Source: Deltaproteobacteria bacterium (GTDB lineage Bacteria; Myxococcota_A; UBA9160; UBA4427). From it: a stretch of DNA of 64,000 nt. How positions within the stretch are numbered: the stretch's first letter is position 1; each line of letters opens with the position of its first letter. The notes beneath the pieces were generated by a model that saw nothing but the letters and a program-made list of their open reading frames with translations, did no database searches and was not told the DNA's origin. Positions 21,250 to 24,390 of this stretch are shown here, in pieces. The DNA is taken from positions 1-64,000 of the forward strand of contig PBFW01000036.1 in the NCBI GenBank assembly GCA_002719955.1, written 5' to 3'. Made by a program: the position numbers and the translations under genes.

Positions 21250-22104
21250 ATGACCCCGACCTCCCATCGCGTCAAAGCCAGCCACGGCCTCGAACTCCAT
21301 GTCCTCGAGTGGAGCGGCGAAGGCGTCCCCCTCGTCCTCCTCCACGGGCACGGCAACGAGGCCCATCTCTGGGACGATTTCGTACCGAGCGTGGCGGAGC
21401 ATTACCGCGTCCTCGCCGTCGACCAGCGCGGGCACGGTGACTCCGACTGGGATGTCGAAGGGCGCTACGACGCCGAGACGATGGCCGACGATCTCGAGGC
21501 CCTCCTCGATCATTTCGGGATCGATCGATTCGTGTTGATCGGTTTCTCGATGGGCGGCCGGGTGTCCATGACCTTCGGGGGTCGCCATCCCGAACGCCTA
21601 GCGGGCCTCGTGCTCGTCGATATCGCCCCGGAACTCGACGCCCGTGGAATCGCGCGAATCGGAAACGAGATGTCCGAGCAACGCGCTCCGGTCTTCACGA
21701 GCATCGAAGAGTATGCGCGGATGCTCTCGCTCAACTACCCGGCCGGGCAACCCGCGGCGCTGCATCGCATGGCGCAATTCGGCCTTCGACAACGCGACGA
21801 CGGGCTCTTCGAACTGAAGATGGATCCGAAACTTCGGAGCGAACGGCCCGACGACAAAGCGGCCAGGACGCAGGAAGAGCTCTTCGCCCAACGGCAGTGG
21901 GACGCGCTCGCGAAACTCCCCTGCCCAACCCTCGTCATACGCGGCGCGGCCTCAGACATCCTCTCCCCGGATATCGCCGATCGCATGGTCGATGAAGTCC
22001 TCCAGAAGGGGACACTCGCCGTCGTCGCCCAGGCCGCCCATTCCGTTGCGACCGATAATCCCGAGGGCTTTCGGGAGGCGGTCTGCGCCTTTGTCCTCGG
22101 ATAA
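21250..22104 (+). CDS. alpha/beta hydrolase
   Basis: A 284-residue alpha/beta-hydrolase fold protein. The oxyanion region is LLHGHGNEAHLWDD, the nucleophile elbow GFSMGG (Ser100), the acid Asp is in GAASDILSPD and the His in AQAAHSVATDNP. The overall pattern (VDQRGHGDSD) is that of small-molecule esterases or haloperoxidase-like hydrolases. The substrate is unknown. Its last three codons and stop lie inside a 17-bp tandem repeat, so the C-terminus has probably been formed or altered by repeat expansion. Confidence 0.85.
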   Translation: MTPTSHRVKASHGLELHVLEWSGEGVPLVLLHGHGNEAHLWDDFVPSVAEHYRVLAVDQRGHGDSDWDVEGRYDAETMADDLEALLDHFGIDRFVLIGFSMGGRVSMTFGGRHPERLAGLVLVDIAPELDARGIARIGNEMSEQRAPVFTSIEEYARMLSLNYPAGQPAALHRMAQFGLRQRDDGLFELKMDPKLRSERPDDKAARTQEELFAQRQWDALAKLPCPTLVIRGAASDILSPDIADRMVDEVLQKGTLAVVAQAAHSVATDNPEGFREAVCAFVLG

Positions 22105-22160
22105 AGAGCGTCCTCGGATAAAGAGCGTCCTCGGATAAAGAGCGCCCTCGGATAGAAAAA
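22093..22160. repeat. 17-bp tandem repeat across the stop of the hydrolase gene
   Basis: Three exact copies of GTCCTCGGATAAAGAGC (22093-22109, 22110-22126, 22127-22143) are followed by a diverging partial copy at 22144-22157. The first copy supplies the codons Val-Leu-Gly and the TAA stop of the alpha/beta hydrolase. The later copies are non-coding. This looks like recent slippage or unequal recombination. Confidence 0.95.
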
Positions 22161-22208: not shown

Positions 22209-22940
22209 CTAGGCGGGGGGGGCACTCGAGGCACATCCGCCGCAGATCGCGATCTCTGTCAGACCGGTCTTCGCGATCCCGAGGAACGCACTCTCGCCAG
22301 CCCCGAGCGCGCGCTCACAACGGCCGCAGGCAGAGTCACGGTTGAGAACGAGCGGCTGCCAGCCGAGAATCTCCGGGAAGAGGTCGGCCGCTCGAGGGCG
22401 CCGGGCATGCTCCGCCTTCGGTCCCGAGCGCCCGTCCGCAGGCGTGGGAGCCTCCCCGTCCTCGACATCCCCTCGTCGGCTCCTCTCCGGATCACGGGCG
22501 GTTGCTTCTGCGGCCTCGTCCCGGCGAAACTCCTCCTCGACGTCGGCCTCGCGGACGCCGCGCCGGCGCGCAGAATTTCTGCGTGACCGCATGGGCCGAC
22601 GCTCTCGTCGGGCGCGGATCTGGCGACGAACGCGCTCGCGTACCCCTTCCGCCTCGTCGATCAGCTCATCCATCATTCCGCCCATATCATCCGAGACGCT
22701 ATCGACCATCGTAAACACCTCTTCAAGGACGTTTCGAACGAGGTTCGAGGCGGGTACGCGGAGATCATCGGCGAAAATTCGGATGTCCTCGGCGAGTTGC
22801 TCGGAGATCCGCGTGTGAAGGACACGCTCCTTGCGAGCGCCTCGACCCCGTGGTCTCGCCCCCCGTCGGCCGGCGCCGTCATCGTCGTTCTGGGTTTCGT
22901 CTGGACCGCAACCGGGTTTTCGTATCGTCATGTAATACAT
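22209..22940 (-). CDS. ribbon-helix-helix protein with C-terminal zinc-ribbon-like motif
   Basis: A 243-residue protein. Residues about 40-80 look like a ribbon-helix-helix DNA-binding unit (VLHTRISEQLAEDIRIFADD ... PASNLVRNVLEEVF). A long Arg/Glu-rich, probably disordered or helical middle follows. The C-terminus has ACGRCERALGAGESAFLGI...AICGGCASS, two CxxC pairs suggesting a zinc ribbon. I know of no named function; a transcription regulator or DNA-bound adaptor is the natural inference. ATG 22940 is chosen because GAGG lies 7 bp upstream. Three 10-bp direct repeats cover this start, suggesting autoregulation. Divergent from the decayed sthA. Confidence 0.65.
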   Translation of the reverse strand: MYYMTIRKPGCGPDETQNDDDGAGRRGARPRGRGARKERVLHTRISEQLAEDIRIFADDLRVPASNLVRNVLEEVFTMVDSVSDDMGGMMDELIDEAEGVRERVRRQIRARRERRPMRSRRNSARRRGVREADVEEEFRRDEAAEATARDPERSRRGDVEDGEAPTPADGRSGPKAEHARRPRAADLFPEILGWQPLVLNRDSACGRCERALGAGESAFLGIAKTGLTEIAICGGCASSAPPA

Positions 22941-22960
22941 TGTGATACCTCGTGATGCAT
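22931..22960. promoter_or_regulatory. three 10-bp direct repeats at the RHH gene start (possible operator)
   Basis: On the plus strand TGTAATACAT, TGTGATACCT and CGTGATGCAT follow one another with exactly 10-bp phasing (consensus YGTRATRCMT). They span the ribosome site and both candidate start codons of the RHH gene. Ribbon-helix-helix dimers typically bind short direct or inverted repeats on one helix face, so this fits an autoregulatory operator. This is inferred from arrangement only. Confidence 0.45.
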
Positions 22961-23194
22961 TCTCCAATGCCATGGGTTTCCTGCACCCCAATCCCCGCAG
23001 AGCCGACCCCAAAAGATTTCCCCGCGGGGCTCCGGCTTTCTGATGCAATCTTCGCGGGCAATCCGGAAGAAAAAGAAGCGAGTCCGATGGGGAAGCGCTC
23101 TCTGATTTCGCCCTGGCCGTCAAACCACATCGAAGCCGCTCCGATGATGGGGAGGCATCGGCGGGGTTCCATGACGACCGCTCTGGAGGATTCA

Positions 23195-24390
23195 ATGCGC
23201 TTCGACCTCACCGCAATCGGCGCCGGCCCAGCCAGATGGCCCGCGGCCCTTCAAGGGGTCAAGCTCGGAATGAGCGGCAGCGTGATCGAGAAGGGGCTCA
23301 TGCTAGGCGGAGCCTACGTTCGTACGGGCACGCTACCGAGCAAGACATTGCGACATACGGCCCTCGAGTTGGCGAATAGCCGACGTGCGGTCCAGCTCGG
23401 CATCCACACCACCCATCTTCGCCCGCTCGCCATTCAGGACCTGCGCGGCCCTCGCAACCAATCGGTTGCGAGCCATCAACAGACCGTTCGATCCTTCTTC
23501 GAGCGAAACAAGGTCCAGGTTCTGACGGGGTCGGCCTCCTTCATCGACCCAAATCATGTCCGCATCTCCGATCGGCTCGGCGAAGAAATCGTCGAAGCGA
23601 AACACCTGATCATCGCGACAGGCAGCCGCCCGCGACGGCCGCGAAGTGCTGCCGAGATTCCTCGACACTCGCTGCCACGCGATGCGCAACACGGGAATTC
23701 GCGTCATGCAGGAAGAGGAAATCAGCGGGCACCGCATCGAAAAACAGATGCGGAACCAAGAGGACGTCACCTACCTCGAGAGCGGACTGATCAAGGTCGA
23801 CGAAACCTATCGAACCCCCGGCGATCATGTTTACGTGATTGGCGATGTGGTCAGCTTCCCTGCACTTGCCTCTACGAGCATGCATCGGGGTCGAATTGCC
23901 GTATTGCATATTGCGGGAGAAGAGATCCCGCCCCCCCGCCCCGCTTCCGATGGCCATCTTCACGATCCCCGAGACCTCCTCCGTCGGTCTGACCGAAGAG
24001 GAGTGTAGAGAACGCGGCTTACCCTATGAAGTCGGCATCGCCCGTGCCGGAGAAACGCCGTGAGGCCAGATCGTCCGGGACGAAGGGCCCGTCAAATTGG
24101 CCTTTCGGCGTGATACCCGGATCACCCTGGGTGTCCACATGATCGGCGTCGCTGCGAGCGAACTAATCCATATCGGCATGATGCTGCTCCATACGGACTC
24201 CACGCTCGATCAGATCCTGAGCGCAGTCTTCAACCACCCGACCCTCTCCGAGATCTACCGGGTCGCAGCACTCGACGGCATCAATCGGCTCTTGAGGAGC
24301 GGATTGCAGAAAGCCGCAGACGGTCGGTCGGTGGAACGAGTCGATGGAGCGCTTCGGGGAGGCTACAAGAAGGTGCGCCAATGGTCGTAG
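23195..24390 (+). pseudogene. sthA: decayed soluble pyridine nucleotide transhydrogenase gene
   Basis: Pieces in three frames assemble into an SthA-like flavoprotein. Frame 2 gives FDLTAIGAGPA..., GTLPSKTLRHTALELA and HLIIATGSRP. Frame 3 gives DGREVLPRFLDT and VDETYRT...VYVIGDVVSFPALASTS. Frame 1 gives MAIFTIPETSSVGLTEEE and, after an in-frame TGA at 24061, GQIVRDEGPVKLAFRRD...HPTLSEIYRVAALDGINRL. The NAD-binding Rossmann segment after ATGSRP and a second stretch before VDETYRT are missing. The TGA is one base from CGA, giving the family PRGQI. The original would have balanced NADH and NADPH in the cytoplasm. It has a good ribosome site (GGAGGA) but cannot make a functional enzyme. Confidence 0.92.

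Follow-up and report, generated by a model that had tools for sequence, protein, structure and literature searches.

Repressors of the ribbon-helix-helix (RHH) fold that control their own genes, such as CopG, Arc, MetJ and Omega, are generally known to bind tandem pseudo-palindromic units over a promoter as stacked dimers, with operator units of 8 bp for MetJ, 7 bp for Omega and about 11 bp for Arc. NikR, a nickel-dependent repressor, joins an RHH domain to a metal-binding C-terminal domain, MatP has many target sites (matS) in the terminus region, and antitoxins of RHH fold repress their own genes. Within the Myxococcota, CdbA of Myxococcus xanthus is a 67-aa, c-di-GMP-binding RHH protein whose hundreds of chromosomal sites are direct repeats one helical turn apart (PMC7156744). 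The gene described here, from a window of 64,000 nt (the whole stretch of DNA that was analysed), resembles the CopG/Arc/MetJ/Omega group in its predicted RHH fold and in helically phased tandem units over its own predicted core promoter, and differs in its 10-bp unit, long linker, C-terminal ribbon and conserved chromosomal synteny. The mechanism would thus be of a known kind, with a new architecture and a promoter that is probably leaderless.

The coding sequence (22209–22931, minus strand, stop at 22209) specifies 240 aa (MTIRKPG...SSAPPA); the nearest relative is 69% identical over the full length. The open frame itself is longer and contains two in-frame ATGs, at 22940 and 22931. The upstream ATG (22938–22940, minus strand, giving MYYMTIR) lies inside the repeat array, formed where one repeat unit abuts the next (CACAATG), and several relatives do not have it, while the ATG 9 nt further on (22931–22929) is kept in relatives, at a conserved position relative to the array; for this reason the gene most likely starts at 22931, where the array stops exactly at the ATG. 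The protein has three parts, all encoded on the minus strand: an RHH domain (residues about 33–72, 22716–22835), a long charged linker, helical and disordered (residues about 73–187, 22371–22715), with an acidic stretch conserved within the order and a variable Arg/Glu-rich remainder, and a small C-terminal beta module bearing CxxC...CxxC (residues about 188–235, 22227–22370). The RHH-like N-terminus and the two CxxC motifs had already been recognized in an initial annotation, as had the lack of a characterised regulator with this combination; we found no named family of this architecture in Pfam, NCBIfam, PHROGs or PADLOC, and no description of a self-regulated RHH and zinc-ribbon family in open papers.

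The window protein's own Pfam RHH matches fall below gathering scores, and its relatives match RHH_1, RHH_3 (best 4.5e-6), RHH_5, CopG_antitoxin, NikA-like and FitA-like families. The RHH region was poorly resolved in the full-length structure prediction, and the domain was predicted alone instead; the resulting model fits the strand-helix-helix domain of about 45 residues that defines the superfamily, with an extended start, a helix at 13–26 and another from 30. The monomer models do not assign the strand as strand, though the domain-alone model shows that stretch as extended and has both helices in position. The 50 solved structures that align best with it are nearly all RHH proteins (Z 4.2–7.2), the fold matches including KacA, TacA, PutA, NikR, AmrZ, CopG, Omega, Arc, CdbA and MatP. 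Foldseek on the domain gave E about 0.3 at best, and a PDB sequence search returned weak RHH matches alone (NikA, AvtR, DinJ, VapB26). The evidence for the RHH assignment is weak but many-sided, and the pseudo-palindromic unit described below agrees with an RHH dimer as the binder. The RHH part is also the most conserved region among homologues, with invariant LHTR.S..L, P.SNLVR.VL and F. The protein was found in 35 of the 60 relatives searched, in 42/64 genomes of a wider draw of the order and, by profile search, in 101/283 genomes sampled phylum-wide, an unnamed regulator family present in roughly one third of the Myxococcota genomes sampled. Several genomes of the window's own genus do without the gene, which is therefore not essential everywhere. 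Some genomes carry paralogues, second RHH-ribbon genes of the RKDRLIQTRVP type.

The three repeats at exact 10-bp intervals reported by the initial annotation were confirmed at 22931–22960, where putative operator units TGTAATACAT (22931–22940), TGTGATACCT (22941–22950) and CGTGATGCAT (22951–22960), listed on the plus strand, run head to tail. Each unit consists of a pseudo-palindrome of 9 bp, TGTRWYACA, and one further base; the three copies match this palindrome at 9/9 (in the gene-strand reading), 8/9 and 7/9; a 10-bp unit is consistent with one RHH dimer per helical turn. With up to 3 mismatches allowed, the 5.85-Mb genome contains a single copy of the triplet and none of a reversed-pattern control. 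Each of the 36 close homologues has a two-unit site over its start or upstream of it, and 34 of them score above the best of 720 shuffles, though the matrix was trained on these sequences and this count is not independent. A distant set, outside the matrix training, comprised 20 homologues from other parts of the class and phylum; of these, 16 beat the same shuffle maximum, and at least two units stand in 10-bp register in 20/20 against 11.5% of shuffles. The repeats are thus not missing upstream of orthologues, a result that the initial annotation had named as one that would refute it: the array is kept in 36/36 close and 20/20 distant homologues, counts that are not fully independent given shared ancestry.

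Spacing was counted for pairs of units each matching TGTRWYACA at 7/9 or better. Exact 10-bp pairs occur at 11/20 distant loci, 9/18 paralogues and 30/36 close loci, the last against a shuffle mean of 0.11, a conservation that excludes chance as the origin of the array. Other spacings are mostly near zero, with smaller peaks at 8 and 12 bp, as a near-palindromic unit would give, and one at 20 bp due to the third unit. In two paralogues that belong to one family (L139 and L140), the arrays ahead of the RHH gene have turned to GTATAC-type units near 10-bp phase, possibly through co-evolution of site and protein; altered paralogue sites such as these make a data set for RHH recognition rules.

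The array overlaps the predicted core promoter, with units inside the −35/−10 spacer and over the −10. On the minus strand, a predicted −10 box CACAAT (22939–22944) lies 7 nt before the ATG at 22931, with the same box and distance in L003, L005, L006, L020 and L039, and follows, after a 17-bp spacer, a predicted −35 box TTGGAG (22962–22967) that is weak in the window and a perfect TTGACA in L009, L023, L034, L036–L039 and L042. In 27 of the 36 close homologues the ATG comes 18–30 nt after the site start; the −35 of these is often perfect TTGACA, the spacer is mostly 16–17 bp, the −10 is TACATT, TACAAT or CACAAT, and the ATG is often 6–8 nt further on. A Shine-Dalgarno motif precedes the gene in 3/27 homologues whose ATG is within 30 nt of the site start and in 7/9 of those where it is more than 40 nt away. 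The initial annotation had placed the repeats over a ribosome site; this part did not hold up, the GAGG before the ATG at 22940 not being kept in relatives and most short-spacing homologues having no Shine-Dalgarno motif. Since the predicted −10 ends 6–8 nt before the ATG and a Shine-Dalgarno motif is mostly absent there, we infer that the mRNA is probably leaderless. A search of open papers found no description of leaderless genes in Myxococcota. A leaderless promoter with its operator inside the spacer would, if true, be a compact self-limiting switch.

Genome-wide, a strict site (the two-unit pattern with at most 1 mismatch) was found in 18/20 genomes with the gene and in 0/20 genomes without it; the reversed control pattern gave none. 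G002 and G012, the genomes with the gene and no strict site, have weaker sites there. Nearly all strict sites lie at the RHH-ribbon gene or at a paralogue (G015:C225, G057:C12, G038:C25). One exception (G011:C253) is a copy of the G011 site sequence on another contig. The other, in G070:C16 (L125, 70071–70090), is a 20-bp site flanked by genes for an alpha/beta hydrolase and a small membrane protein; it is identical to a site at the paralogue operon of G057 and is a candidate target in trans of the paralogue. With 2 mismatches allowed and the array removed, the window's genome has 10 sites at 10-bp spacing and 8 at a 13-bp control spacing. A regulon built on these two-mismatch sites was rejected, their frequency being near that of the controls; three were inspected, two of them within coding sequence (of NUDIX hydrolase and amidohydrolase genes) and the third in or by a multihaem-cytochrome-like gene. 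The scans do not point to a large regulon of strong sites, because the 10-bp excess largely vanishes once the array is removed; weaker sites may exist.

The locus is very probably explained by cooperative self-repression, the work of an uncharacterised RHH family that spans the phylum. Autorepression through cooperative binding was also what the initial annotation proposed, and it gains support from the conservation of the array and the lack of strict sites in genomes without the gene. The gene product would be a dimeric RHH protein acting on its own promoter, each 10-bp unit taking one dimer, with two to four dimers stacking cooperatively along the same face of the DNA at intervals of one helical turn. 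The transcript would begin at or beside the ATG, and the bound protein, covering the −10 box and the spacer that separates it from the −35, would block RNA polymerase and so steady its own level. We infer self-binding, cooperativity and the sign of the effect from sequence; the protein may activate rather than repress. The operator is simple enough for one gel shift.

The C-terminal part would be dispensable for site recognition. In the full-length prediction the module is a compact fold with pLDDT about 96, and all four of its cysteines are found in 23/36 close and 10/20 distant homologues and in 13/18 paralogues. Eight close homologues have the module without CxxC; in three related ones (L015, L038, L039), which retain the RHH domain and the operator, a GYF_2 domain (E 1.3e-17) stands in place of the ribbon; L042 carries neither ribbon nor GYF_2, and L021 is apparently frameshifted. 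All of these, L021 included, retain an operator site, from which it appears that operator recognition belongs to the RHH part; across these homologues the zinc module varies independently of the operator. The window protein is like NikR in having an RHH domain followed by a C-terminal domain with a putative metal site (CxxC), and unlike it in that the ACT-like fold of NikR is replaced by an apparently unrelated small CxxC beta module whose cysteines are not universal. Pfam searches gave no match to the NikR C-terminal domain; Foldseek on the module returned matches to PARP-type zinc fingers (zf-PARP) and to C1, none with E below 0.3 and too weak for the module to be named after either.

The ribbon, or GYF_2 in its place, is more likely a signal receiver or a partner binder. 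One version, which would add to self-repression rather than replace it, makes the CxxC module a zinc or redox switch whose metal loading controls operator binding. The share of four-cysteine members and the compact, confident fold speak for such a switch, and the cysteine-free, GYF_2 and ribbonless homologues with intact operators speak against it; on balance we think it unlikely, and possible as a property limited to four-cysteine members. Somewhat less doubtful, and still tentative, is the idea that the family's only strong target is its own leaderless promoter, the RHH domain serving as a homeostat for a non-regulatory protein whose main job is done by a swappable C-terminal domain, be it CxxC ribbon, cysteine-free ribbon or GYF_2.

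Among the alternatives to self-repression, the one that survives best makes the product a nucleoid-associated or chromosome-organising RHH protein in the manner of CdbA or MatP, with many weaker sites of which the array is the strongest. The gene is phylum-wide and in conserved synteny, a long helix follows the RHH domain, and the predicted fold matches both CdbA (Z about 4.9) and MatP (Z about 5.4), which has long helices as well; CdbA is moreover a Myxococcota RHH protein whose sites are likewise direct repeats set one helical turn apart (PMC7156744). No sequence match between CdbA and the window protein was found, however, and where CdbA and CdbB are small stand-alone RHH proteins with no C-terminal domain, the window protein has 240 aa with a linker and a C-terminal module. 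CdbA has hundreds of sites and MatP many, whereas strict sites of the window family are almost confined to its own promoter, its one strong self-site; the near parity of 10-bp and control two-mismatch sites, two of those inspected being in coding sequence, and the absence of the gene from several relatives also count against an organising role, which we regard as distinctly improbable.

The array could instead be the operator of a different regulator, of CRP/FNR or MerR type for example, that controls this gene. The letters TGTGA/TCACA resemble CRP half-sites, but CRP sites are TGTGA-N6-TCACA, unlike two to four units at strict 10-bp phase, and a global regulator would have many other targets. 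Because strict sites co-occur with the gene, almost confined to the family and its paralogues and with none in genomes without it, this reading is very unlikely. A stray type II antitoxin repressing its own operon is scarcely credible: CopG_antitoxin is the commonest weak Pfam match, but plasmids, phages and PADLOC gave no match to the protein, and beside the gene there is no cognate toxin gene or conserved small toxin partner, the conserved neighbours being metabolic and housekeeping genes (ilvE, hspQ, and sthA-like, D-threonine-aldolase-like and alpha/beta hydrolase genes).

Of these neighbours, ilvE is within the fetched neighbourhood at 17/20 loci, and hspQ (YccV-like), which encodes a Lon-related factor, is often divergent from the RHH gene (e.g. 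L104, L118–L121). A D-threonine-aldolase-like gene follows in many loci, its place taken by the alpha/beta hydrolase in the window's genus, and the sthA-like gene also recurs. Paralogues of the RKDRLIQTRVP type have other company: at L124, L126, L127, L128, L130, L132 and L141 they sit beside a conserved 90-aa helical protein (MSDERVLTELVEDAVDKGATTVEEIHRAI...) with no Pfam match, some of these loci also carry a lipase-like hydrolase, and an ABC1/AarF kinase adjoins other paralogues; these neighbourhoods are possibly a lipid-related module.

We also note two features of the window near the gene. (i) At 23171–24291 on the plus strand lies a remnant resembling soluble transhydrogenase/lipoamide dehydrogenase, in which each of three homologous segments is in a different frame and about 50 codons are lacking; the gene is intact in L103, L104 and L122, and the remnant reflects either decay or an assembly error. 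(ii) Four near-perfect 17-bp tandem copies (GTCCTCGGATAAAGAGC) at about 22090–22160 on the plus strand span and follow the stop codon of the alpha/beta hydrolase gene.
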